Shown: piece after piece, positions 18,453-38,197 of the stretch
How positions within the stretch are numbered: the stretch's first letter is position 1
How the letters are laid out: each line of letters opens with the position of its first letter
Source of the DNA: Robiginitomaculum sp.
GTDB lineage: Bacteria; Pseudomonadota; Alphaproteobacteria; Caulobacterales; Maricaulaceae
Assembly (NCBI GenBank): GCA_030949705.1
Contig: JAUZSF010000004.1
Span: 17,501 to 81,500, forward strand
Direction of reading: 5' to 3'
DNA length: 64,000 nt
Program-made: the position numbers and the translations under genes
The notes under the pieces: generated by a model
Seen by the model: only the letters and a program-made list of their open reading frames with translations
Database searches by the model: none
Told to the model about the DNA's origin: nothing

Positions 18453-20702
18453 TTACAGCTTCACCCGGCGTAATCGCAGCGCATTGGAAATCACCGAGAA
18501 TGAGCTGAAACTCATGGCCGCCGCCGCGATCATCGGCGACAGCAATATCCCAAACACCGGATACAGGACGCCGGCCGCTATGGGCACACCCAAGGCATTA
18601 TAGGCAAAGGCAAAGAACAGGTTCTGCCGGATATTCTTCATCGTTGCTTCAGACAGGCGGCGCGCTCGCACAATGCCGCGCAAATCCCCCCGCAAAAGAG
18701 TAATACCAGCGCTTTCCACCGCCACGTCGGCGCCCGTACCCATGGCAATGCCGACATCGGCCTGGGCCAGCGCCGGCGAATCGTTTACGCCATCCCCAGC
18801 CATGGCGACTTTGTGTCCCTTGGCCTGCAGGCTTTTGACCAGTTCGGCCTTGTCCTCGGGCATCACGCCAGCGCGAATTTCATCAATGCCCAGCTTGTCC
18901 GCTACCGCCTGGGCCGTGCGGGCGTGATCGCCCGTGGCCATGATGATTTTCAGCCCCTCTTTATGCAGGGCCCATATGGCTTCATCTGTACTTTGTTTGA
19001 TCGGATCGGTGACCACCAGCAATGCTGCTGGCTTGCCCTCCATGGCCAAAAACATCACCGTGGCACCTTCTTCGCGCTGAACATCGGCTTTTTGGATAAA
19101 GGCCTCGTCCTGGATGCCGTTCTCCTTCATCATGCGGGCATTGCCAAGCGCCAGCGAGTGTCCACCGACCTGGCCAGTAACGCCCATGCCGGAATGAGAA
19201 TGAAAATCCTCGGCCGGTGGTATCTCCAGGGACTTTGCCTTGGCGGCCTCGACAATGGCCTCGGCCAGAGGGTGGGCACTGCCTTGTTCCAGCGCCGCCG
19301 CCGCCCTCAGTATGTCATCCTCATTACCTTGATTGACGACAATAATACCTGTCAGCTTTGGCTTGCCTTCGGTCAGGGTGCCGGTTTTATCCACGACCAG
19401 CGTGTCCACCTTGGCAAAGCGTTCCAGGGCCTCGGCATTTTTGATCAGAACACCGGCCTGTGCGCCCCGACCGGTCGACACCATAATGGATATGGGCGTT
19501 GCCAGGCCCAGCGCACAGGGACAGGCAATGATTAACACCGAAACCGCGGCGATCAGACCATAGGCCATGGGCGGGTTGGGTCCCCATACGGACCAGGCCA
19601 CAAAGGCAATAATCGCACTGAGCACCACCAAAGGCACAAATATACCGGAAACGGCATCCGCCAGTTTCTGAATGGGCGCACGCGAACGCTGTGCCTCGGC
19701 CACCATGGCCACAATTTGCGAGAGCATGGTATCAGCCCCCACCCGGGTGGCCCGAAACACAAAGGTCCCATTGCCGTTGATCGTACCGCCGGTAACGCTG
19801 TCCCCAGGCTCTTTTTCCGCCGGAACCGGCTCGCCGGTCAACAGGGATTCATCCACATGGGATGTCCCTTCCACAACTTCGCCATCCACCGGAATCTTAT
19901 CGCCGGGGCGAATGCGCAACAAATCCCCCTGATGCACCTCTTCCAGAGGGATGTCTTCTTCGCTCCCGTCTTCACGGACAATACGGGCGGTTTTGGGGGC
20001 CAGATCCAATAGCGCCCGGATGGCGCCACCGGTGCGTTCACGGGCGCGCAGCTCCAACACCTGTCCCAGCAACACCAGGACGATGATAACCGCGGCGGCT
20101 TCAAAATAGACCGCGACACTGCCATCTTCGGCCCGAAAGGTATCGGGGAATATACCCGGCATGATCGCCGCAATGGTGCTGTAAATATAGGCCGCCCCCG
20201 TCCCCATGGCGATCAGGGTAAACATATTGGGACTTTTATTCAGAACCGATTGCCACCCCCGAACGAAAAACGGCCAGCCCGCCCACAGCACCACCGGCGT
20301 CGCCAACAACAGCTCCACCAGTTTAGATAAGTGCGATGGCACCCAATTTTCCACCGGCAAGCCAACATAAGGCCCCATGGACAGGACCAATAGGGGAAGA
20401 GTAAAAATCAGGCCCAACCAAAACCGGATGCTGAAATCCTTTAACTCGGGATTGGGCCCTTCATCTCCGGTGGGTACGCCTTTGGGTTCCAGCGCCATGC
20501 CACAGAGCGGACAAGTGCCCGGCCCTTTTTGCTCAATCTCCGGGTGCATGGGACAAGTATAAATCGCATTTTTATCCACTGGCCCGCTCGGCTTTTTAGC
20601 GGGGCCATGGTCATGGTGACAGGCATGCTCGTGCGCAACCTCTGGCACGTCATGATGACAGTGCGCATGCCCCGCCGATTTATCCTGATGATGGTGGTTC
20701 AT
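18453..20702 (-). CDS. copA: Cu(I)-translocating P1B-type ATPase
   Basis: An inner-membrane pump of about 749 residues that exports Cu+ at the cost of ATP. Instead of a GMxCxxC domain it starts with a His-rich tail and the heavy-metal-binding unit [11 protein letters not shown]...[10 protein letters not shown]. The pump core shows the TGEPVP actuator loop, [30 protein letters not shown] and [10 protein letters not shown]. The membrane signature is exact for P1B-1 copper pumps: N-x6-YN-x4-P in [14 protein letters not shown], and M-x2-SS-x5-N in [11 protein letters not shown]. The start is set at the ATG of MNHHH, with AAGAGA in front. It lies downstream of the Met-rich lipoprotein gene, probably in one operon, separated by a hairpin. 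Confidence 0.94.
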
Positions 20703-20724
20703 TTCTCTTACCCATAAAAAATAA

Positions 20725-20763
20725 GCTGCAAACGAACACAAGGGGGGAGGTGCCGTTTGCAGC
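20725..20763. other. 10-bp inverted repeat between lipoprotein gene and copA
   Basis: GCTGCAAACG and CGTTTGCAGC are perfect arms 19 bp apart, within the 86-bp gap. There is no T run. In a polycistronic message it would fold near the copA ribosome site and may set the relative expression of the two genes or protect the upstream part. Confidence 0.55.
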
Positions 20764-20788
20764 CAGTTAACGCAAAATGTGTGCGCTT

Positions 20789-21403
20789 TTAATGGTTATG
20801 CGCGGCAGGTGCCGCCGCAGCGGCGGCTTCGTTTTGCGCTTCGGCGTTCTTGTGCATTTTATTATGCATCATTTTATGACATTTTTTCTGCATATCGCTC
20901 ATGCCCTCGCCGGATTTCATTTTGGCTTTCATGGCGGCCATATCCATGTCGCCGCTTTTCATCTTTTCATGCATTTTTGCCATCATGGCTTTACATTCCA
21001 TCGGCATGTCTTTCATCTGACCCGCCGATTCCGACATCATGGATTTGTGCCCTTTTTTATCGTCGGCTTTGTGCATTTTAGCATGCATCATTTTATGGCA
21101 TTTTTTCTGCATATCGCTCATGCCTTCGCCGGATTTCATTTTGGCTTTCATGGCAGCCATATCCATGTCGCCGCTTTTCATCTTTTCATGCATTTTTGCC
21201 ATCATGGCTTTGCATTCCATCGGCATGTCTTTCATCTGACTCGCCGATTCCGACATCATGGATTTGTGTGCACCGTGGTCCATCGCCATGGGCCTGGCGT
21301 CTTTGGGCGCCGGATCAGATGGGCCGGTTGTTGTAGTAGCGCAAGCACTTAGCGCCAGCGCACCAGCCCCAATCAATGCAAAACGAAAAATATGGTTGAT
21401 CAT
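20789..21403 (-). CDS. Met/His/Cys-rich lipoprotein with internal duplication
   Basis: A predicted lipoprotein of 204 residues. The signal sequence ends in the lipobox LSAC (Cys21), after which the mature part faces the periplasm. Residues 46-118 form a 73-residue unit, and 119 to about 185 repeat it nearly exactly. Each unit has about 18 Met, 5 His and 2 Cys with many Lys, in motifs such as [19 protein letters not shown] and KKCHKMMH, a composition suited to binding Cu+. The end is Ala-rich with terminal HNH. It is upstream of copA on the same strand. No known domain is recognised; copper scavenging is an inference from composition and neighbour. Confidence 0.82.
20849..21268 (-). repeat. 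219-bp tandem duplication inside the lipoprotein gene
   Basis: The two copies (about 21050-21268 and 20849-21049, the second truncated) have a period of 219 bp, or 73 codons. They differ at only a few scattered bases, for example CCCTCG/CCTTCG and GGCGGCC/GGCAGCC. The frame is kept, so the duplication looks recent. Confidence 0.88.
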
Positions 21404-28167: not shown

Positions 28168-28198
28168 TTGAACCTATAGCCACTGTAGGAATTAGAGT
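28168..28198 (+). promoter_or_regulatory. MerR-type promoter of the czc operon
   Basis: The -35 TTGAAC (28168-28173) and the -10 TAGAGT (28193-28198) are 19 bp apart, the abnormal spacing used by MerR-family activators. A dyad CCTATAG-CCA-CTGTAGG fills the spacer (28173-28189). A matching element lies before the second P1B ATPase gene (38167-38197). It starts just after the TonB receptor stop and points at the efflux genes. Confidence 0.8.
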
Positions 28199-28295
28199 AT
28201 CAGCGTTGGATAGGGATAACGGGTCTTTTGTAACTGGTTTACGAACGGCCCCATCATCGCTACAAGACGGCCATTGCGAGTGACTGATTGTTCCT

Positions 28296-28616
28296 ATGAA
28301 AACCATGCTCACCAAAGTCCTGATCCTCTGCCTGATGGCCATTACCTTGCATGGCTTTGGCACGGATGAGCATGTGTTTAAGGCCCAAAAGGCTGACATC
28401 ACCATTGCCAGCACGGATATCGGCAAGGACAAGTCCGGTGACAACATCCCCAATCTGGGGGCTGCCTGTGATATTTGCGAAGTGGTGCACCAATACGTCA
28501 CCCTGGAAAACAATCTGCTGTTGCCGGTACAGCCGGCCATCTTGATGAACACCATGCCGATGTTACTGCCGCCAGGACGAACACCCGGCAGGATAACCCG
28601 CCCCCCCACCATCTGA
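28296..28616 (+). CDS. Small exported protein of the metal-efflux operon
   Basis: A 106-residue protein preceded by the MerR-type promoter, first in the efflux operon. The N-terminus (KVLILCLMAITLHGFG) is a signal peptide, so the mature part is periplasmic. A conserved-looking CDICEVVHQY motif near residue 60 could bind metal through its two Cys and the His. The tail is Pro- and Arg-rich. I do not recognise the family; comparable small proteins precede many CzcCBA pumps. The gap to czcC is 140 bp and contains no terminator. Confidence 0.65.
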   Translation: MKTMLTKVLILCLMAITLHGFGTDEHVFKAQKADITIASTDIGKDKSGDNIPNLGAACDICEVVHQYVTLENNLLLPVQPAILMNTMPMLLPPGRTPGRITRPPTI

Positions 28617-28756
28617 TTACTCCATGGGCGTTTTGCGCGTGCGCGTAATGCCCTCTCATCGCAGGCTCTGGGGTGCCCAATACCCCGCCATGCCTGTCAG
28701 ACAATGACCAAATGCCGCCGGTTCATCACCGACGCATGATTTGCTGAGTAATCACT

Positions 28757-30025
28757 ATGAATTTCAATGCCAAGGCACTTTTTGGTGCCCTGTGGGTCGG
28801 GATCGCTTTTGTGGCGACACCTATGGCCCAATCCCAAGACTCCTCACCTGCCCCACAACAAAGCTCGCGGCCACTGGTCGTGGAATTTGCCAAAGAGGTG
28901 CTGGCCAACCATCCCGGCATAGCCGCGGCCCAGGCCGAACTGGATGCCGCCAGGGCCCGCGCCAAAGGGGCCGGACGGGCACTCTATAACCCGGAAATTG
29001 AAGCCGGTTATGAAAACGCCGCTTCGACCACCACATCGGTGGGCATTTCACAAACCCTGGATATGTCCGGCAAACGCAAGGCCCGCGCCGCCACCGGCCA
29101 GGCCGATGTGATGGCCGCCAGGGCGGCACTGGAGCTGGTGCAAAAATCCCTTCTGGCCAATGTGCTGGAGGCGTTGGCCGTACATCAAAGCGCCTTTGAA
29201 CAATTACAACTGACCGCCTCCAAAGTGCGACTGGCGCGGGATTTTCTGACCCTGTCGCAAACGCGCAAAACCGCCGGGGATTTATCTGAATCCGAACTGT
29301 TGACCGCGCGGCTGGCCCTGTCCCAGGCCATGGCCGAACAAAGCCGGGCCAAGGGTGACCTGTCCCGTGCCCGCGAACGCCTTGCCGCCATTGCCGGCAG
29401 GCCGCGCGAGGTATGGCCGTTTATGGTCGGCACGCCCCAGGGGGTGATGTTGCAAAGCTGGTCTGGTGAGCTAAATCGTTTGCCGGAAATGCGGCTGGTT
29501 CGCGCCCAATCCGACAGCTTTCGCACCCGTATCCTGCTGGCCGATAAAATGCGCAAAGCTGATCCCACTTTGGGGCTCAGTCTTGGGCAGGAAAGCAACG
29601 GTCTTGGCGGCAATGCCACGCTGTTTGGCATTCGTCTGTCGATTCCCTTGCAAATTCGCAATTCCTATAGCGAAAGCGTAACCGCGGCCCGGGCCGAAGC
29701 GGTGGGTGCCGAGGCCAATGCCCGCAAAATGCGCCAGCGCGTCGAGGCGCGCCTGAATGCCACCACCGAGCGCTATCTGGCCGCAGCGTCCGCATGGCAG
29801 GACTGGCAGAATGGCGGGGCCGGCGATCTGGAGGCTCAGCGCACTTTGCTGAAAACCCTGTGGGAAGCCGGCGAGCTGAATGCCGTGTCTTACCTCATTC
29901 AACTTAACCAGACTTTTGATGCACAAGCCGCCGCCATCGACCTGAAAGGGGCGTTATGGCGCTCTTGGTTCGACTGGCTCGATGCATCCAATTCCGCAAC
30001 TTCATGGCTGGAGGCCATCCAATGA
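28757..30025 (+). CDS. czcC: RND efflux outer-membrane protein, CzcC/TolC family
   Basis: The outer-membrane channel of a tripartite heavy-metal pump. The 422-residue product has a signal peptide (GIAFVATPMAQSQ) and two OEP repeats rich in helix with A/E/Q heptads (AKEVLANHPGIAAAQAELDAARARAKGAGRALYNPEIEAGYE, then RQRVEARLNATTERYL-like sequence). GISQTLDMSGKRKARA and LSIPLQIRNSYSESV mark the two beta-strand regions. The end overlaps the start of the adaptor gene (ATGA), so translation is coupled. No lipobox is seen. Confidence 0.88.
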   Translation: MNFNAKALFGALWVGIAFVATPMAQSQDSSPAPQQSSRPLVVEFAKEVLANHPGIAAAQAELDAARARAKGAGRALYNPEIEAGYENAASTTTSVGISQTLDMSGKRKARAATGQADVMAARAALELVQKSLLANVLEALAVHQSAFEQLQLTASKVRLARDFLTLSQTRKTAGDLSESELLTARLALSQAMAEQSRAKGDLSRARERLAAIAGRPREVWPFMVGTPQGVMLQSWSGELNRLPEMRLVRAQSDSFRTRILLADKMRKADPTLGLSLGQESNGLGGNATLFGIRLSIPLQIRNSYSESVTAARAEAVGAEANARKMRQRVEARLNATTERYLAAASAWQDWQNGGAGDLEAQRTLLKTLWEAGELNAVSYLIQLNQTFDAQAAAIDLKGALWRSWFDWLDASNSATSWLEAIQ

Positions 30026-31146
30026 GTTTTTTCAACACCTGTCTTAAAACCCTGCCGGTGATGGCCGCCCTGGTTTTATCCCCCCCCTCGACCCCGGCCT
30101 TTGCCCAGGAAGAGCATGGCGAAGAACATGCCGAAAACCTGGTCCGGATGAGCGCCAGTCAACGTCGCCAGAACGGCGTACAGACCATGACCATCGCCCC
30201 CAAGGCATTGGCTATGGAAATCAGTGCCCCCGGTGAAGTGGGCCTGGATCTTTACAAGACCAGTCAGGTAACGCCGCGCATATCCGCACAAGTGATTACC
30301 CGCCATGCCCGTCTTGGCGATGCTGTCACCCTGAATGCCCCTCTGGTTACCCTCTCCAGCGTGGAAATGGCCAGTGCCCAGGGTGATCTGATCGTTACGG
30401 CCCGCGAATGGGAGCGGGTGAAAAAACTGGGCCGCAAGGTGGTCTCTGATCGCCGCTATGTAGAGGCTCAGGTCGCCGCCCAACAGGCTCGCGCCAAGGT
30501 ATTGGCCTTTGGTATGACCACGGCCGCCGCCGACAAGCTGGTGCGTTTGGCCGATGCCTCCAAAGCTACGGGGGCGTTCACCCTCTATGCCCGCCAAAAC
30601 GGTACCATTATGCGCGATGACTTTGTGGTTGGAGAAATTGTTGATCCCGGCCGCGTGCTGTTTGAAATCACCGACGAGCGCAGTGTCTGGGTGGATGCCC
30701 GTCTGTCCGCCGATGATGCCGCCGCCATTATTGCCGGCGCCCCGGTGCGCATTCGCACCAGTGCAGGCAGTGAATTTGCGGGCAAGGTGCTGCAATTACA
30801 TCATGAAATTGATGAAACCACCCGCACCCTGGCTGCCCGGATCGAGGTTTCCAATACGCAGGATGCCTTACACGCTGGCCAGTTTGTCACCGCCTTTATC
30901 GAGGCCGGCAAAACCAACCCTGTATTGGCCGTACCGCAAGACGCCGTCACCCTGATGAAAGGGGGTAATCATGTGTTTGTCCTCAAAGACAATATGCTGA
31001 CGCCTGAACCGGTACTGACCGGCGCGGTGCGGGGCAATTGGGTCGAGATCAAAAGCGGGCTGAAGCGCGGCGATGAAATCGCCATTAGCCAGATCTTCCT
31101 GCTGAAATCCCTGATCCTGAAATCATCCATTGGCGACGAGCACTAG
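30022..31146 (+). CDS. czcB: RND efflux periplasmic adaptor, CzcB family
   Basis: The membrane-fusion protein that links the inner-membrane pump to the channel. The 374-residue product has a signal sequence (VMAALVLSPPSTPAFAQEEHGEEHAEN), then a His/Glu-rich N-terminal segment, a barrel-sandwich (lipoyl) domain (GEVGLDLYKTSQVTPRISAQVITRHARLGDAV in sequence), a helical hairpin and a beta-barrel (RVLFEITDERSVWVDARLS). The His/Glu segment after the signal may deliver metal. The ATG overlaps the czcC stop; the end is 10 bp before the pump gene. Confidence 0.9.
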   Translation: MSFFNTCLKTLPVMAALVLSPPSTPAFAQEEHGEEHAENLVRMSASQRRQNGVQTMTIAPKALAMEISAPGEVGLDLYKTSQVTPRISAQVITRHARLGDAVTLNAPLVTLSSVEMASAQGDLIVTAREWERVKKLGRKVVSDRRYVEAQVAAQQARAKVLAFGMTTAAADKLVRLADASKATGAFTLYARQNGTIMRDDFVVGEIVDPGRVLFEITDERSVWVDARLSADDAAAIIAGAPVRIRTSAGSEFAGKVLQLHHEIDETTRTLAARIEVSNTQDALHAGQFVTAFIEAGKTNPVLAVPQDAVTLMKGGNHVFVLKDNMLTPEPVLTGAVRGNWVEIKSGLKRGDEIAISQIFLLKSLILKSSIGDEH

Positions 31147-31155
31147 GGGCCGAAA

Positions 31156-34100
31156 ATGTTAAACAAACTTGTTGAATTTTCACTCCAGTACAAAGTGCTG
31201 GTGCTGATTGCATTTGGCGTTGTCGGCTTTTTGGGCTGGCGCGCCGTAACCACCATTCCCATTGATGCCTTTCCCGATGTCACGCCGGTGCAGGTCAATA
31301 TCTACACTGAATCCCCGGGGCTGGCTGCCGAAGATGTGGAACAATTGCTGACCTTCCCGGTGGAATCCGGCATGGCGGGCCTGCCCGATGTGCAGGAAAT
31401 CCGCTCGGTCAGCCTGTTTGGCCTCTCCTATGTGGCGGTCTATTTTGAAGACAGCATGGACATTTATTTTGCCCGCCGTCTGGTGATGGAACGGCTGGCC
31501 GAAGTGGCCGACCGTATCCCCGAAGGCTATGGCACTCCGGAAATGGGGCCCAATACGTCCGGGCTGGGTCAGGTGTTCTGGTACACGCTGGAACGGGCCG
31601 ATGAAAAACTGAACGCCGATATTAGCGATATGGATTTGCGCACGGTGCAGGACTGGAATGTCCGTCTGATCTTGCGCACCGCCCCCGGGGTTGACGATGT
31701 CATGTCCTGGGGCGGTCAGGAACGCCAGTTTCAGGTACAGATCGATCCGCTGAAACTGATCAAATATGACCTTGGCTTTCGCGAAGTGATGGAGGCCCTT
31801 CAGGTCAATAACCGTCAGGTGGGTGGCCAGTATATTGATCGCGGGCCAGAGCAATATCTGGTGCGCGGCCTTGGGCTGGTCAAAAACGAACATGACATTG
31901 GCGATATTGTCGTCAAAGTTGCCGATGGCACCCCCGTCTATTTGCGTGATGTTGCCAATATTGTTCAGGCGCCAGCACTGCGCTTTGGTGCGGTTACCCG
32001 CGATGGCAAAGAGGTCGTCTTGGGCATGGCCCTGTCGCGTATTGGCGAGAATGCCAAGGCGGTGGTCGATAACGTCAAGGAAAAGGTGAAAATCGTTGAT
32101 GGCGCCTTGCCAGAGGGCATGGTCATCAAACCGATTTATGACCGTACCGAGCTGGTGGAAAAGGCCGTGGGCACCGCCGAGCGGGCCTTGATCGAAGGCT
32201 CCATTCTGGTCGCCATTGTACTCTTTTTGTTTTTGGGCGAATTGCGCTCGGCGCTGGTGGTGATCACCGCTTTACCGCTGGCCATGCTGATTGCCTTCAT
32301 TTTTATGGACCTGATGGGCCTGTCGGCTAATCTGATGTCACTGGCGGGTCTCGCCATTGGCATCGGGATGATGGTGGATGGGGCTGTGGTGATGGTGGAG
32401 AACTCGTTTCGCATCATGGCCGAGCGAAAATCCGAAGGCAACGGTCCGGTCAACCGAACCGCGGCGGTACTGACCGCCGCGCGTGAAGTCGCCAACCCGG
32501 TCAGCTTTGCCATCGGCATTATCATTATCGTGTTTATGCCGCTGTTCACGCTGGACGGTCTGGAAGGCAAGCTGTTCAAGCCCATGGCCTTTAACATCAG
32601 TTTTGCCATGGCGGGATCGATGTTGCTGACCTTGACCATCATTCCGGTGCTGGCCTCGCTGATCCTCAAACCCAAAGAGGAAAAGGACACCTTTTTGGTG
32701 CGCTGGCTGAAAAGGGGCTATCTGCCGCTTTTGGCCTTTGGCTTAAGACGCAAGGCCGTGGTGGTCTCAAGCGCCATAGTGTTGCTGATTGCCTCATTGG
32801 GTCTCTTTCCGTTTTTGGGCAAAGAGTTCATGCCGCAGCTTCAGGAAGGTTCGATCATGTGGCGGGTGACCTCCATTCCATCGACCTCGCTGGATCAGTC
32901 GATCAAAATCTCAAAAGATATTGAAAACGCGCTTAGTGCCTTTCCCGAAGTGGAAACCACCATCGCCATGATTGGCCGCGCCGAAAAAGGTGAAACGGCG
33001 GACGTCAATTATATGGAGATTTATACCGCCCTGAAGCCACAAAAAGAATGGCCCGAAAAGCGGTCCTTCGAGCATCTGGCCGATGAAATGCGCGAAAAAC
33101 TGGAAGTGGTGGCGCCAACCTCGGTCATTGCCTTTACCCAGCCGATCCAGATGCGCGTTGAAGAGCTGATCTCGGGCGTGCGTGCCACACTGGCGGCCAA
33201 ACTTTATGGTGAAGATCTGGCTGAGCTGGATCGCCTTAGCGAGCAGATCAAGAACGCCATTGCCGAAGTGCCGGGCGCCGCGGATCTGTCGCTGGAGGCC
33301 AATATCGGCAAGCCGCAAATTCGCATTACAGTGGATCGCGAGGCGCTGGCCCGTTATGGCATGAATGCCGATGATGTGCTGGAACTGGTCCGCACCGGTA
33401 TCGGCAACGAGCCGGTCAGCACCCTGATTGATGGCGTTAAACGCTTTGATATCACGGCCCGGCTGAACGATGCCTCCAAGGCCTCGGTAGAGGCCATTGG
33501 CAATATCCCCCTGCGAACCGGGACCGGGGCGATCCTGCCCCTCAAACGGGTGGCCAAAATCACCACCGCCGAGGGGTATTCCTTTATCCGGCGCGAGCAA
33601 TTGCAACGCTATGCGGTGATCCAGATGGATGTGCGTGGCCGCGATGTGGACAGCTTTGTCAAAGATGCCAACACCGCCATTGCGCAAAATGTGGAGATGC
33701 CGCCGGGATACTGGATCGAATGGGGCGGTGCCTTTGAGAACCAGCAACGGGCCATGAAGAAGCTGGGCGTCATCGTCCCGGTGACCATCTTCTTTATCTT
33801 CGTGCTGCTCTATACGGCATTTAATTCCATGCGCTTTGCCGCGCTGATCATTGCCAATGTGCCCTTTGCCACCATTGGTGGCCTGGTGGCCCTGTTTATC
33901 AGTGGGCAATACTTATCGGTCCCCTCGGCCATCGGCTTTATCGCCGTCTTTGGCGTGGCCATGCTGAACGGCATTGTGTTGATCAGCTTTATCAACGAGC
34001 TGCGCGATAAGGGCCTCAGCATCGCCGAGGCGGTGCGAAAAGGGGCTGAAATGCGCCTGCGTCCGGTGATGATGACCGCCAGTGTGGCCATTTTGGGCCT

Positions 34101-34281
34101 CATCCCCATGCTGCTGTCCAGCGGCGTCGGGGCCGAAACCCAGCGCCCATTGGCCGCGGTGGTGGTGGGCGGGTTGATCACCTCAACTCTGCTGACCCTG
34201 CTGCTGTTGCCAGTCATTTACGAGTGGATGGAGACCCGTATGGAACGCAAACAAACCGCCAAAAGGGAGGCGCAATCATGA
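31156..34281 (+). CDS. czcA: Heavy-metal efflux RND transporter, CzcA/CusA family
   Basis: The proton-driven inner-membrane pump, 1041 residues with the usual 12 segments and two large periplasmic loops. Strong family signatures are IPIDAFPDVTPVQVNIYTESPGLAAEDVEQLLTFPVE (as TIPIDAFPDVTPVQVN), GLSYVAVYFED and GIGMMVDGAVVMVEN in TM4. That TM4 motif has the Asp and Glu of heavy-metal RND pumps but lacks the DFG Asp of classical CzcA, so the transported metal (Zn/Co/Cd, Ni or a monovalent ion) is unsettled. The pore Met residues of CusA also seem absent (MWRVTSIP in place of the YMPST type). It overlaps the PII-like gene by ATGA. Confidence 0.9.
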   Translation: MLNKLVEFSLQYKVLVLIAFGVVGFLGWRAVTTIPIDAFPDVTPVQVNIYTESPGLAAEDVEQLLTFPVESGMAGLPDVQEIRSVSLFGLSYVAVYFEDSMDIYFARRLVMERLAEVADRIPEGYGTPEMGPNTSGLGQVFWYTLERADEKLNADISDMDLRTVQDWNVRLILRTAPGVDDVMSWGGQERQFQVQIDPLKLIKYDLGFREVMEALQVNNRQVGGQYIDRGPEQYLVRGLGLVKNEHDIGDIVVKVADGTPVYLRDVANIVQAPALRFGAVTRDGKEVVLGMALSRIGENAKAVVDNVKEKVKIVDGALPEGMVIKPIYDRTELVEKAVGTAERALIEGSILVAIVLFLFLGELRSALVVITALPLAMLIAFIFMDLMGLSANLMSLAGLAIGIGMMVDGAVVMVENSFRIMAERKSEGNGPVNRTAAVLTAAREVANPVSFAIGIIIIVFMPLFTLDGLEGKLFKPMAFNISFAMAGSMLLTLTIIPVLASLILKPKEEKDTFLVRWLKRGYLPLLAFGLRRKAVVVSSAIVLLIASLGLFPFLGKEFMPQLQEGSIMWRVTSIPSTSLDQSIKISKDIENALSAFPEVETTIAMIGRAEKGETADVNYMEIYTALKPQKEWPEKRSFEHLADEMREKLEVVAPTSVIAFTQPIQMRVEELISGVRATLAAKLYGEDLAELDRLSEQIKNAIAEVPGAADLSLEANIGKPQIRITVDREALARYGMNADDVLELVRTGIGNEPVSTLIDGVKRFDITARLNDASKASVEAIGNIPLRTGTGAILPLKRVAKITTAEGYSFIRREQLQRYAVIQMDVRGRDVDSFVKDANTAIAQNVEMPPGYWIEWGGAFENQQRAMKKLGVIVPVTIFFIFVLLYTAFNSMRFAALIIANVPFATIGGLVALFISGQYLSVPSAIGFIAVFGVAMLNGIVLISFINELRDKGLSIAEAVRKGAEMRLRPVMMTASVAILGLIPMLLSSGVGAETQRPLAAVVVGGLITSTLLTLLLLPVIYEWMETRMERKQTAKREAQS

Positions 34282-34586
34282 AAGAGATCAAAGCCTACAT
34301 CCACAGGAACCGGGCGGCTGATGTCGTCCGGGCCCTGCGCAAGGCCGATTTTGGGCATTTCACTTTGGTAGATGTCAAACAGGTTCTGCAATCGCTGGAA
34401 ACCGCCGATCAGGAATTTTCCACCGAATTTGGCGCCCGGGTGCTGACCGAGGTGAAACTGGAACTGGTCTGTGACAGTGATCGTTTAAAAGAAGCCATCA
34501 TCCTGATCCGTGAAAATGCCAAAACCGGGCAAGAAGATTCAGGGTGCATCTATGTCAGTGAAATTGAAAGCCGGCATAGGATCTAG
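34278..34586 (+). CDS. PII-like protein of the PII-NG group
   Basis: A 102-residue relative of the PII nitrogen regulator. It starts MKEIKAYIHRNRAADVVRALRKADF and ends with a version of the PII C-loop (TGQEDSGCIYVSEIESRHRI, where PII has TGKIGDGKIF). The middle loop has no Tyr at the uridylylation site. This PII-NG subgroup is known to be genetically linked to heavy-metal RND pumps, and here the start overlaps the stop of the pump gene, with strong coupling. It probably binds a nucleotide or ion and modulates the pump, but no function has been shown. Confidence 0.85.
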   Translation: MKEIKAYIHRNRAADVVRALRKADFGHFTLVDVKQVLQSLETADQEFSTEFGARVLTEVKLELVCDSDRLKEAIILIRENAKTGQEDSGCIYVSEIESRHRI

Positions 34587-34599
34587 CTCCCCCAGGAGG

Positions 34600-34642
34600 C
34601 CTTCAGCATCAAAGCGGCCCTAACCCGCGATGGTGCTGAAGG
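34600..34642. terminator. Hairpin after the efflux operon
   Basis: CCTTCAGCA and TGCTGAAGG form a perfect 9-bp stem, 13 bp after the PII-NG stop. There is no T run, so it is an end-of-message structure rather than a sure intrinsic terminator. Confidence 0.4.
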
Positions 34643-34703
34643 CAGCACGGGTTCATAAGCCTGTTACATAGCAAAGCCATCTATTGCCTTGACGGTCACG
34701 GCG

Positions 34704-35816
34704 TTAAAACAAAACGTGGATTACGATGACGGTGGAAAGCGCGAGTATGAACATGCTTGCCGAGACCATCGCCAGGGTCAGCCCCATAGACCGGTTAGCG
34801 GTTTTGACTTTGATACGCAGTTCTTCTGCGGTTTGCGGGAACTCAAGGGCGGCGGAATTAGAAGCTGTCCATACCGTGCTTTTGGCATAGCGCCGTTCTT
34901 CCTGTTTACCACCGGCATGCAGGACCAGCAGAATGGCGATCAGACACATCATGCTGGCCGGCATCCACATGATATACCCGCCAATGGATTCATCGGCCAG
35001 GGGGAGCAGCCCAAACAGACGCCCATCCACATCATAGGCCGTATACACAACCACGGTTTTCAACGTGGTGATGGAACCGATCAGCGTATTGGATACCGCC
35101 GTACCGATCAGCATCAAAATCCGAACGGGATAGGGAATCCCCGCCGGCGTATCGCGCCGGTCAAACATCAGATAAAAGAATAACAATCCCGCCGCCAGCA
35201 TGGTGATATGCATGACATAATGAAGGGCGTCATTTAAAATGGCAGCATTGTGGATGGCGGGAATTTGCCAGAAATACAAAGATACCAAAAACACCAAAAA
35301 CGCAACGGGCGCACGGCTCAGAAAGCGAAAAACGGATCGTACTCCCCCATTGGATACCATAGGGGCCAGCACCCGGCGTCTGACCAAAGTTGGCAGGCCC
35401 GCAATGAACACCCCTTCCGGCCAGGACAGGGTGATCAGCATGGGGCCAAGCATTCTCAGAAGAATATGTTGTACCTGATGAAGTGAAAACAGACGTTCAG
35501 CCATCGGGTCTATGGGCGATTGCAGGGCCAGAAAAACCACCGCCATACCCGCCAAGAACAATACATGACGCCAGACCGAAGGCGGATTAAGCACTTGCCG
35601 TCGCCGGGCCATGCCACGCCCATATACAATCAGCACCAGCACGCTGGTAATGACCATTGCCGGTGTCAGGTTCCAGTGCGTCCAGGCCGTCTTACTGGTC
35701 AGGTCAGCACCCCCATGCGCCACAGCGTTCAGGGCTGACACGCCCCACAAAAACACTGTCCACAGGATCGTGAAACCTGTGATGGTTTTATGGGTAATGC
35801 TGGCAATTTTCCTCAT
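34704..35816 (-). CDS. CtaG-type (caa3) cytochrome oxidase assembly/copper protein
   Basis: A polytopic membrane protein of 370 residues of the CtaG_caa3 family. LFSLHQVQHILLRMLGPMLITLSWP, DALHYVMHITMLAAGLLFFY and several further segments match that fold, and the conserved His pairs (HQVQH, HYVMH) are seen. It is not the Cox11 family that shares the name CtaG. Roles are argued: oxidase copper centre assembly or periplasmic copper handling. It starts 40 bp after the second P1B ATPase gene ends, on the same strand, so it is probably cotranscribed with it. Confidence 0.86.
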   Translation of the reverse strand: MRKIASITHKTITGFTILWTVFLWGVSALNAVAHGGADLTSKTAWTHWNLTPAMVITSVLVLIVYGRGMARRRQVLNPPSVWRHVLFLAGMAVVFLALQSPIDPMAERLFSLHQVQHILLRMLGPMLITLSWPEGVFIAGLPTLVRRRVLAPMVSNGGVRSVFRFLSRAPVAFLVFLVSLYFWQIPAIHNAAILNDALHYVMHITMLAAGLLFFYLMFDRRDTPAGIPYPVRILMLIGTAVSNTLIGSITTLKTVVVYTAYDVDGRLFGLLPLADESIGGYIMWMPASMMCLIAILLVLHAGGKQEERRYAKSTVWTASNSAALEFPQTAEELRIKVKTANRSMGLTLAMVSASMFILALSTVIVIHVLF

Positions 35817-35855
35817 GAAAATCTCTTTGCGCCCGTTGCCGGACAAAGGCAATGA

Positions 35856-38135
35856 TCAATTGACCTTTGTCTGCCCCAACATGCGCAGGGCGTTCGCCAC
35901 CACAATCAGGGAAACCCCGACATCGGCGGCAATGGCCCCCCACATGGAGGCCAGTCCAAACGCCGTCAGGATGACAAACACTGCCTTCACCGCCAAAGAC
36001 AGCCCGATATTTTGGCGTATAATGGCCATGGTCCGCCGCGAATGTTTCACCAGCCATGGCAGCTTGCCAATATCATCGGTCATCAGGGCGATATCAGCGG
36101 TTTCAATGGCCGCATCCGAACCAACCGCCCCCATGGCGATAGCAAAACTGGCCCGGGCCATGGCCGGGGCGTCGTTTACCCCATCCCCGATCATCGCCAC
36201 CACCGGATATTGCGTGATCAGTTCTTCTATGACGGCGACCTTGTCTTCGGGTAACAGCTCGGCGTGGATTTCATCTATGCCCACCGCCCGGGCAACGCTA
36301 TTGGCGGCGCGTTTATTATCGCCGGTCAACATCACCAGTTTTTTGACCCCCAGAGCATGCAGATCCGCCACCAGCCGTTTGGCATCCGGCCGGATCGCAT
36401 CGGCAAGGGCAATCAAACCCAGCGCCTTGTCGCCAGCGCCGATCACCACCACAGTTTCGCCGCGCTCTTCGATTTCTGCCAACAGGGCTGTTGAGATTTG
36501 CGCCCCCACCCCGCGCTCATTGGCATAACGGGGCGAGCCCAGCCACAATTCAGCCTTGCCAAGGCGGCCAGTTACGCCGCGCCCGGGTACAATGGTCACC
36601 TCGTCTGCCGCCTGATACGCCAGCGCCTTTGCATCGGCCTGTGCCAGAATGGCCATGGCCAAAGGATGAGACGAGCGCGCTTCCAAGGCGGCGGCACTGG
36701 CCAATAGCGTATTTTCGTCCGTGCCATTTAAGGGATAAATCCCCACCATTTCGGGCTCCCCCTTGGTGATGGTGCCGGTCTTGTCGAGCGCCAAAACATC
36801 CAGCCGGGAGGGGATTTCAATATAGGCACCGCCCTTGATCAACACCCCCTGCCGTGCCGCGGAAGCCAGCGAGGCCACAATCGACACCGGCGTGGAGATG
36901 ACCAGCGCGCACGGGCAGGCAATGACCAGCAAAACCAGTGCATTATAAAACCAGAAGCCCCATGAAGCGCCCAACAATAAAGGTGGCACAATGGCCACCA
37001 GAATGGCCAGCACCATCACAGAAGGCGTATAAATCCGGGCAAATTTTGCCACCCATTGCTCGACCGGGGCACGGCGTGAATGGGCGTCCCCCACCATGCG
37101 AATGATGCGGGCCAGCACCGTATCGCCGGCGACCTTTGTCGCCCGGACAATCAGCGTGCCTTCGCCATTGACCGTACCGGCATAAACCTCATCACCTGCC
37201 TCTTTGGAAACTGGGGCGCTTTCGCCGGTGATCGGGGCCTGGTTTACCGCGCCCGCCCCGGTCACCACCTCGCCATCCAGCGCGATCCGGTCACCACCAC
37301 GAACAATAAAGCGATCGCCAATGACCACCTCTGTGGCCATAATCTCTGCCTCGGTGCCATCTTCGCGGATCACCCGGGCCGTTGGCGGGGCCAGATCCAA
37401 CAGGGTTGCCACGGCATTGCGGGCGCGCCCGACACTCCAGCTTTCCAGCGTCAGGGACAGGGAAAAGAAAAAGGCAACGGTCGCGGCCTCAAAATACTGG
37501 TTGATCAGAATGGCCCCGCCAACCGCGATCACCATCAACAGATTCATATCCGGTGATAACCGCCGGGCCGATGACCACGCCTTGGGGGCAACAAAACGCG
37601 CCCCAAACACAATCGCCAGCGCAAACAGAAGGATTTCCACCAGCGGCATGGGGCTGGTGCCGTGCCCTTCAAAGATATGCAAGGCCCCCACCAGCCCGGT
37701 TTTGGCAATGTGATAGGCAAGGCCAGCCCCCCAAAACAGACCACTGATCAGCGTAAAGCGTTTTTGGCGATCCAGATTGGCGGCGTGATCGGCCTCGGCG
37801 CTTTGTGCATCCCATGGGCTGGCGCTCATACCCGTTTTGCTGACCGCGCTGATAATGTCTTCATCGCTCAGCGCCTTGCCGCTATCCAACACGGTCATAC
37901 GGGCGTTCAACACATCAAAGGCTAGATGGTCTTCGCCGCCCAAAGATGGCCCCAGCACCTTTTGCAAGGTGCTAACCTCTTCGGCGCAATCAAGACCGTT
38001 TACCCGAAAACTGCGCCCCTTTGCATTGGTGTTGCCAACCGGTCCAATATCACCGCACATGGCGCCGTCATTGGATGCACACGCACCCGTTGCGGCGCTT
38101 TGGTTATGGGCGTGCTTTACATTGTCCGTCATCAT
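35856..38135 (-). CDS. cadA: Zn/Cd/Pb-type P1B ATPase (CadA/ZntA family)
   Basis: A metal-export ATPase of about 759 residues. The N-terminal domain has FRVNGLDCAEEVSTLQKVLG, the form of heavy-metal domain typical of Zn/Cd pumps, plus a Cys- and His-bearing tail. The core shows CPCALVISTP, DKTGTITKGEP, SSHPLAMA and GDGVNDAPAMA. TM8 has DVGVSLIVVAN, the P1B-2 signature for divalent Zn, Cd and Pb, unlike the copper pump at 18453. I set the start at 38135 because the MerR-type promoter's -10 (38167-38172) would otherwise overlap the coding start; AAGG sits before this ATG. It is the first gene of the operon with the CtaG-type gene. Confidence 0.93.
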   Translation of the reverse strand: MMTDNVKHAHNQSAATGACASNDGAMCGDIGPVGNTNAKGRSFRVNGLDCAEEVSTLQKVLGPSLGGEDHLAFDVLNARMTVLDSGKALSDEDIISAVSKTGMSASPWDAQSAEADHAANLDRQKRFTLISGLFWGAGLAYHIAKTGLVGALHIFEGHGTSPMPLVEILLFALAIVFGARFVAPKAWSSARRLSPDMNLLMVIAVGGAILINQYFEAATVAFFFSLSLTLESWSVGRARNAVATLLDLAPPTARVIREDGTEAEIMATEVVIGDRFIVRGGDRIALDGEVVTGAGAVNQAPITGESAPVSKEAGDEVYAGTVNGEGTLIVRATKVAGDTVLARIIRMVGDAHSRRAPVEQWVAKFARIYTPSVMVLAILVAIVPPLLLGASWGFWFYNALVLLVIACPCALVISTPVSIVASLASAARQGVLIKGGAYIEIPSRLDVLALDKTGTITKGEPEMVGIYPLNGTDENTLLASAAALEARSSHPLAMAILAQADAKALAYQAADEVTIVPGRGVTGRLGKAELWLGSPRYANERGVGAQISTALLAEIEERGETVVVIGAGDKALGLIALADAIRPDAKRLVADLHALGVKKLVMLTGDNKRAANSVARAVGIDEIHAELLPEDKVAVIEELITQYPVVAMIGDGVNDAPAMARASFAIAMGAVGSDAAIETADIALMTDDIGKLPWLVKHSRRTMAIIRQNIGLSLAVKAVFVILTAFGLASMWGAIAADVGVSLIVVANALRMLGQTKVN

Positions 38136-38166
38136 AATGCCTTGCCGAAAACTCTTCGCTTGGCAT

Positions 38167-38197
38167 GACATAGCGCCTCTAGGGGCTAGAGGTTCAA
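38167..38197 (-). promoter_or_regulatory. MerR-type promoter of the cadA operon
   Basis: On the minus strand the -35 is TTGAAC (38192-38197), the -10 is TATGTC (38167-38172) and the spacer is exactly 19 bp. A perfect dyad CCTCTAG-CCC-CTAGAGG (38176-38192) fills the spacer. The same TTGAACCT-TAGCC layout is found before the czc operon (28168-28198). Confidence 0.82.

Follow-up and report, generated by a model that had tools for sequence, protein, structure and literature searches.

What controls the two metal-export operons that lie close to each other in a 64,000-nt stretch of Robiginitomaculum sp., an alphaproteobacterium of probably marine origin (assembly GCA_030949705.1, contig JAUZSF010000004.1, positions 17,501 to 81,500; the whole stretch is referred to below as the window)? 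One of them encodes a small exported protein, a CzcCBA-type pump and a PII-like protein, the other, a P1B-2-type ATPase and a CtaG-like protein, and they are preceded by promoter-like sites, S1 and S2, respectively. The initial annotation of the window read both sites as MerR-type promoters and ascribed them to a single regulator encoded outside the window. Comparative evidence supports this proposal and points to a candidate: S1 and S2 are probably operators of one MerR-family activator, here named MerR-C, answering to Zn, Cd or Pb.

S1 (window 28168..28198, plus strand; found by direct reading and by the whole-genome search) has the form TTGAAC-CTATAGCCACTGTAGGAAT(19)-TAGAGT, and S2 (window 38197-38167, minus strand; read directly), TTGAAC-CTCTAGCCCCTAGAGGCGC(19)-TATGTC. 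The spacer holds a 7-3-7 dyad with a three-base loop, CCTATAG-CCA-CTGTAGG with six of seven pairs in S1 and the perfect CCTCTAG-CCC-CTAGAGG (7/7) in S2. Both sites therefore have the MerR-family arrangement, that is, a spacer of 19 or 20 bp with a palindrome between the –35 and –10 elements, and the coordinates, elements, spacer and pairing described initially are borne out by direct reading and chance controls. The 22-base pattern TTGAACCTNTAGNNNCTNNAGG with at most three mismatches yields three rows for the window, namely S1 and two readings of S2, one on each strand, compared to 0.23 expected, and three rows were reached in none of 100 shuffled windows; at most two mismatches being allowed, it has five matches in the 2.83-Mb genome, and a backward control pattern has none. 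For this pattern, the window and genome controls rule out chance as the origin of S1 and S2. The inner dyad alone is far less distinctive (14 rows in the window with at most two mismatches, vs. 7.3 expected), and a generic sigma-70 scan with spacers of 16–18 bp reported neither site, since their spacer is 19 bp long.

The five genomic matches are S1 to S5. As for regulators, two Pfam searches agreed on five MerR genes in this genome (G000, with an assembly 92% complete), none of them on the contig of the window, C4, in line with the expectation that the regulator is encoded elsewhere. MerR-C (143 amino acids; G000:C19:74313-74741, minus strand; PF00376, PF13411 and PF09278 over cut-off) is a solitary gene, the only one of the metal-type MerR genes without an adjoining operon of its own, and is the candidate regulator of S1 and S2. 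Just before it lies S6, TTGAAC-CTACATCTATTGTAGAAAT-AAGAGT, a degenerate site whose weak dyad faces away from the MerR-C gene. The mercury-type regulators MerR-A (G000:C5:131166) and MerR-B (C14:5896) are accompanied by S3 (C5:131383) and a porin-like/HMA/MerT-like operon, and by S4 (C14:6138) and MerT/MerP-like genes, respectively. Two separate MerR-MerT/MerP-like modules (L011, L012), one of them including a porin-like gene, are thus present in one genome. S5 (C15:134890) precedes a gene of a PEMT-family (PEMT/isoprenylcysteine-methyltransferase-like) membrane protein, which presumably resembles CzcN. The other two MerR genes (on C3 and C29) match no metal-sensor model over cut-off; judging by translations, they adjoin acetyltransferase-like and fabH/ihf-like genes, respectively.

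Operator profiles were built from 51 distinct MerR-C-type and 14 mercury-type operators, own sites being left out; as the site finder took the best dyad, three noisy non-operators remained in the MerR-C set. Over the core, S1 scores 31.4 bits with the MerR-C profile and 22.1 bits with the mercury-type one, and S2, 28.7 and 16.9 bits. The margins favor the MerR-C type for S1 (9.3 bits), S2 (11.8), S5 (7.2) and S6 (5.3), and the mercury type for S3 (9.4) and S4 (7.3). Leave-one-out assignment is correct for 47 of the 51 MerR-C-type operators and for 14/14 mercury-type ones. The profiles diverge chiefly at base 19, with C in the mercury type and G or T in the MerR-C type; this base is T in S1 and S5, and G in S2. 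Compared to the CadR/PbrR operator CCTGTAGTTACTACAGG, the MerR-C-type operators keep the frame but differ at base 19, where G or T replaces C.

Both sites are conserved among congeners. S1 is found upstream of czcC in seven of the ten congeners that have this gene (G000, G119, G120, G122, G123, G124, G128), and S2, at the same place in all four ATPase loci of at least 70% identity (the studied one, G119, G122, G133). A stricter scan had found no site in G119, G123, G126, G131 and G133, and the profile scan recovered the first two of these. Invariant columns constitute 21/31 of S1 in five genomes, compared to 16/45 before and 9/60 after the site, and 22/31 of S2 in four genomes, compared to 19/60 and 14/60 in the flanks; the three-base loop contains no invariant columns in either site, while the arms contain some. 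In G133 the pairing of S2 is retained via changes on both arms (CCTCCAG/CTGGAGG). Moreover, the czc site and the operator at the regulator gene itself have an identical base 4 in six genomes, A in G000, G120, G124 and G128, C in G122, and T in G123. Outside the genus, among 13 czcC loci from 12 genomes, two score above their own shuffles (G208, 19.8; G284, 15.1) and 11 do not, so that S1 seems to be a genus-level trait.

The relatives of MerR-C are associated with genes for metal export. Orthologs in G124, G128, G130 and G131 (79–97% identical) face a gene for a cation diffusion facilitator (CDF) exporter across TTGAACCT(AC/CT)AG-NNN-CTGTAG, while in G000, G119, G120 and G135 no CDF gene adjoins MerR-C, and the dyads there are weaker or absent. 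A homology search found no CDF gene in G000; it included no positive control, though the same query finds homologs at other loci. Exact sites (TTGAACCTNTAGNNNNTNNAG) number 36 in the family, in 30 of 137 genomes, vs. two for the backward pattern. At 29 exact-site loci, a regulator with MerR-C as the best match lies within tens of bases in 19 cases and a mercury-type regulator in four; the rest comprise two loci with mercury-type genes and no regulator in view, two czc operons, and two with nothing recognized. Eleven of the 19 fall into the MerR-C clade of the tree, and eight (L073-L076, L091-L094), into a separate nine-row clade, which was not used in the operator profile. These eight regulators and L172, which together make up that MerR clade, have near-identical operators, lack the C-terminal H-x2-C, and have no recognized neighbors. 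For 80 relatives from named genomes that were listed, the nearest recognized neighbor on the opposite strand is a ZntA-like ATPase in at least 30 cases, a CDF exporter in at least 20, and none in 27. In the tree of 142 regulators, a 107-row clade (97/96) contains all 45 CDF-neighbored regulators, 27 of the 28 ZntA-neighbored, five PEMT-neighbored and none of the 20 mer-neighbored ones, whereas a 23-row clade (89/90) contains all 20 regulators with mercury-type neighbors. In Roseobacter- and Aurantimonas-type relatives of MerR-C (L195, L200, L203, L211-L213 and similar) the TTGAACCT dyad is located about 110 bp upstream, with no recognized neighbor gene.

The gene content ascribed to the two operons initially is correct. 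The first gene after S1 (28296..28616, plus strand, as are the other genes of this operon) encodes a small exported protein of 106 amino acids without a Pfam or NCBIfam family. A small open reading frame (ORF) with an ACDIC..VHxY-like stretch also precedes czcC in relatives; the short Cys-x2-Cys...His stretch of the protein (ACDICEVVHQY) is retained before czcC in L138, L139, L141 and L142, as well as in L118:7512-7760, and the gene occupies the same position as CCNA_02805 in Caulobacter. Further downstream are the genes of a CzcC-type outer membrane factor (28757..30025; PF02321, 113.9 bits, cut-off 22), a CzcB-type adaptor (29956..31146; PF16576, 122.4 bits, cut-off 30; TIGR00999, 137.1, below its cut-off of 319.3), a CzcA-type heavy-metal RND pump (31156..34281; TIGR00914, 1103.8 bits, cut-off 701.45), whose nearest solved relative is ZneA (1e-212), and a PII-like protein (34278..34586; PF00543, 36.4 bits, cut-off 25). 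The PII-like match begins at residue 19 of the 34224 ORF, that is, at ATG 34278. By its place beside czcCBA this protein is PII-NG, whose gene has been reported to cluster with czcABC (PMC7726332).

The operon behind S2 is on the minus strand and consists of a P1B-2-type (Zn/Cd/Pb) export ATPase (35856..38135; TIGR01512, 500.9 bits, cut-off 313.5) and, as the second gene, a CtaG-like membrane protein (34704..35852; PF09678, 161 bits, cut-off 27.7). With the copper model TIGR01511 the ATPase scores 381 bits, below the cut-off of 397, and its translation contains CPC and C-terminal K/D helices, which we take to be P1B-2 motifs. As the start given by the ORF caller, ATG 38171, falls within the proposed –10 element of S2, ATG 38135 is the more probable translation start, and it would fit a transcription start near 38160.

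The copper pump operon of the window (18453-21403), stated initially to have no site of the S1/S2 type and to be under another control, indeed has no TTGAAC-type site by pattern scan, and the claim of other control stands so far as this absence goes. The CueR-type dyad (ACCTTCC..GGAAGGT) has no matches in the window, compared to 2.3 expected, and no MerR gene in the genome scores over the CueR-model cut-off. The operon encodes a CopA-like ATPase with an HMBD domain, adjoining a 204-residue Met/His/Lys-rich protein of a duplicated unit.

Which metal MerR-C responds to has to be judged from its sequence and its associations. The initial annotation had named CadR, ZntR, PbrR and CueR as examples of this promoter design, and MerR-C falls below the NCBIfam cut-offs of them all: 121.9 bits with its best model, CueR (TIGR02044, cut-off 147.4), 111.4 bits with CadR-PbrR (TIGR02047, cut-off 151.45) and 100.4 bits with ZntR (TIGR02043, cut-off 167.95). 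Its nearest solved structures are the MerR-family protein 5gpe and CadR, ahead of CueR. MerR-C has at least two of the three metal cysteines, the threshold applied here, and Cys79 is present in 119, Cys114 in 112, and Cys122 in 119 of 119 relatives, to which His131 (104/119) and Cys134 (103/119) may be added. Relatives were assigned to the MerR-C or mercury type by the best BLAST score (one of them, L169, groups with the mercury clade in the tree), and by this assignment the tail C-x2-[ILM]-x2-L-x2-[HT]-x2-C is found in 102/119 MerR-C relatives and in none of 23 mercury-type ones. As the 80 named-genome loci had been picked with a pattern that includes His131, the tail was counted separately, giving 35/49 unselected and 67/70 selected relatives. 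Sensing of Zn, Cd or Pb is plausible given Cys79, Cys114 and Cys122, the ZneA-like CzcA, the ZntA-like ATPase, and the CDF/ZntA-like neighbors of relatives; Cys79 and the exported cargo, we infer, favor divalent metals.

Binding, activation and the order of events could then be as follows. Zn(II), Cd(II) or Pb(II) would bind Cys79, Cys114 and Cys122 of MerR-C, perhaps with His131/Cys134, and the metal-loaded protein would twist the DNA, allowing RNA polymerase to start at S1 and S2. The P1B-2 ATPase and the CtaG-like protein, moving metal from the cytoplasm to the periplasm, would be made at once, simultaneously with the CzcCBA pump and the PII-like protein, providing export to the outside, and, via S5, with the PEMT/isoprenylcysteine-methyltransferase-like membrane protein. 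S6 would be a degenerate operator copy at the start of MerR-C, of which close relatives retain an intact one shared with the divergent CDF exporter.

A number of observations weigh against MerR-C as the common regulator. S1 was not found by the profile scan before czcC in three of the ten congeners (G126, G131, G133), of which G126 and G131 have MerR-C; conversely, G133 retains S2, though its 86% complete assembly yielded no MerR-C ortholog. In G122, base 4 of S2 differs from that of the own operator, and the mercury-type profile fits the czc site slightly better than the MerR-C one does (28.3 vs. 26.5). S1 of G119 has only 4/7 pairs, the site at the very start of MerR-C is degenerate, and the best NCBIfam model of MerR-C, below its cut-off like the others, is CueR. 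Given the completeness of the studied genome, a further MerR gene could be missing from it. Looser genome patterns (two mismatches) are not above their controls, 23 vs. 35 and 26 vs. 22, so that we claim no complete regulon and do not count weak extra matches as its members, including one with a single mismatch at C21:34496.

Three other explanations were considered. MerR-A (C5) or MerR-B (C14) might control S1 and S2, the operons then answering to Hg or to a broader set of metals: both regulators have Cys79/114/122 and, at the gene of each, a matching TTGA..-N19 dyad, S3 and S4 resemble S1 and S2, and the czc site of G122 leans the same way. We consider this quite improbable, as base 19 separates the two classes, S1, S2 and S5 score 7 to 12 bits against the mercury type, and relatives of MerR-A and MerR-B in the tree adjoin MerT/MerP-type genes and in no case CDF; on operator profiles and the tree, the mercury-type regulators were rejected as owners of S1 and S2. 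It is very unlikely that MerR-C senses Cu(I) or some other metal and that the shared promoters answer to copper, since Cys79 is universal among the relatives while CueR has Ser at this position, the structures of 5gpe and CadR are closer than that of CueR, the neighbors are CDF/ZntA-like and the cargo is a ZneA-like CzcA and a ZntA-like ATPase, and such a site is lacking from the window's copper ATPase operon; on the other side stand the CueR model, albeit below cut-off, and the eight-residue spacing between Cys114 and Cys122, which is CueR-like.

The dyads could also be conserved while czcCBA is controlled mainly in another way (by Zur, a CzcRS-like system or other), with S1 playing a minor role. 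The homologous operon of Caulobacter is reported as Zur-activated (PMC4176598), czcCBA of Pseudomonas as being under CzcRS (PMC7242495, PMC8469834), and the three congeners without S1 agree with this; S1 is, however, better conserved than its surroundings, and none of the four window matches to the Zur-like GTTA-N5-TAAC (pattern from PMC4176598; 7.65 expected) is near S1 or S2, which makes such control unlikely. A second Zur pattern likewise gave no support for Zur sites, and neither Zur nor CueR sites were retained as controls of S1 and S2 after these pattern searches.

Regulation of both operons by MerR-C would have the design and mechanism of CadR, ZntR and PbrR (PMC1526738, PMC7242495, PMC12301328). 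CadR/CadA of Pseudomonas (PaCadR) has a MerR-type activator, a promoter with a 19-bp spacer, and a P1B ATPase as the target, and its consensus AACCCTGTAGTTACTACAGGGTT shares the CCT-TAG..CTA-AGG frame with S1 and S2 (PMC12301328, PMC7242495); the differences are in base 19, in the regulator, which in Pseudomonas is divergent from its target and in G000 is solitary, and in czcCBA, reportedly reached in Pseudomonas only via CzcRS. In P. putida, CadR is described as acting on czcRS3, and it is the czcRS3 product that in turn activates czcCBA (PMC8469834). CadR-CDF plasmid divergons (Permina et al., 2006; PMC1526738), in which the regulator faces CDF over a CadR-like dyad, resemble the MerR-C orthologs, but here the contigs are chromosome-scale and alphaproteobacterial, and in G000 the targets lie apart. 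Like MerR-C, E. coli ZntR is a solitary regulator of a distant P1B-2 ATPase gene, zntA, but with a 20-bp spacer instead of 19 bp, another palindrome and, reportedly, no own site (PMC1526738). Caulobacter czrCBA-zntA is similar in gene order, with a small ORF first, followed by RND genes, the ATPase nearby and the promoter before the small ORF; it is reported to be Cd-induced, with a Cd-raised start site at that promoter (PMC3637150), whereas its Zn activation is ascribed to Zur (PMC4176598), in place of the MerR-type operator seen here. No report of a MerR regulator acting directly on czcCBA was found among the openly accessible papers searched. In the Salmonella GolS regulon, a single MerR activator does serve a P1B ATPase (golT) together with an RND pump (gesABC); GolS, unlike MerR-C, is a gold/copper sensor without CDF ancestry.

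Taken as a whole, this is mostly familiar biology with unusual wiring of pump genes: given Zur in Caulobacter and the CadR-CzcRS relay in Pseudomonas, a Czc operon directly under a MerR regulator would be a different arrangement. It is possible, and suggested here tentatively, that MerR-C represents a large unnamed alphaproteobacterial sensor class, in which the extra C-terminal H-x2-C gives a different metal site, and which in this genus directly controls czcCBA, replacing Zur or a two-component system, the ancestral CDF partner having been lost. The H-x2-C tail makes the choice of metal a concrete question at the level of single residues, and base 19 offers a simple means of distinguishing MerR targets of the Zn/Cd type from those of the mercury type within this group of bacteria. 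If the assignment of both operons to MerR-C is true, one cytoplasmic sensor of divalent metals would switch inner-membrane and whole-envelope export together, constituting a testable regulon, where the published Caulobacter and Pseudomonas systems instead use Zur or a CadA/CadR-to-CzcRS relay.

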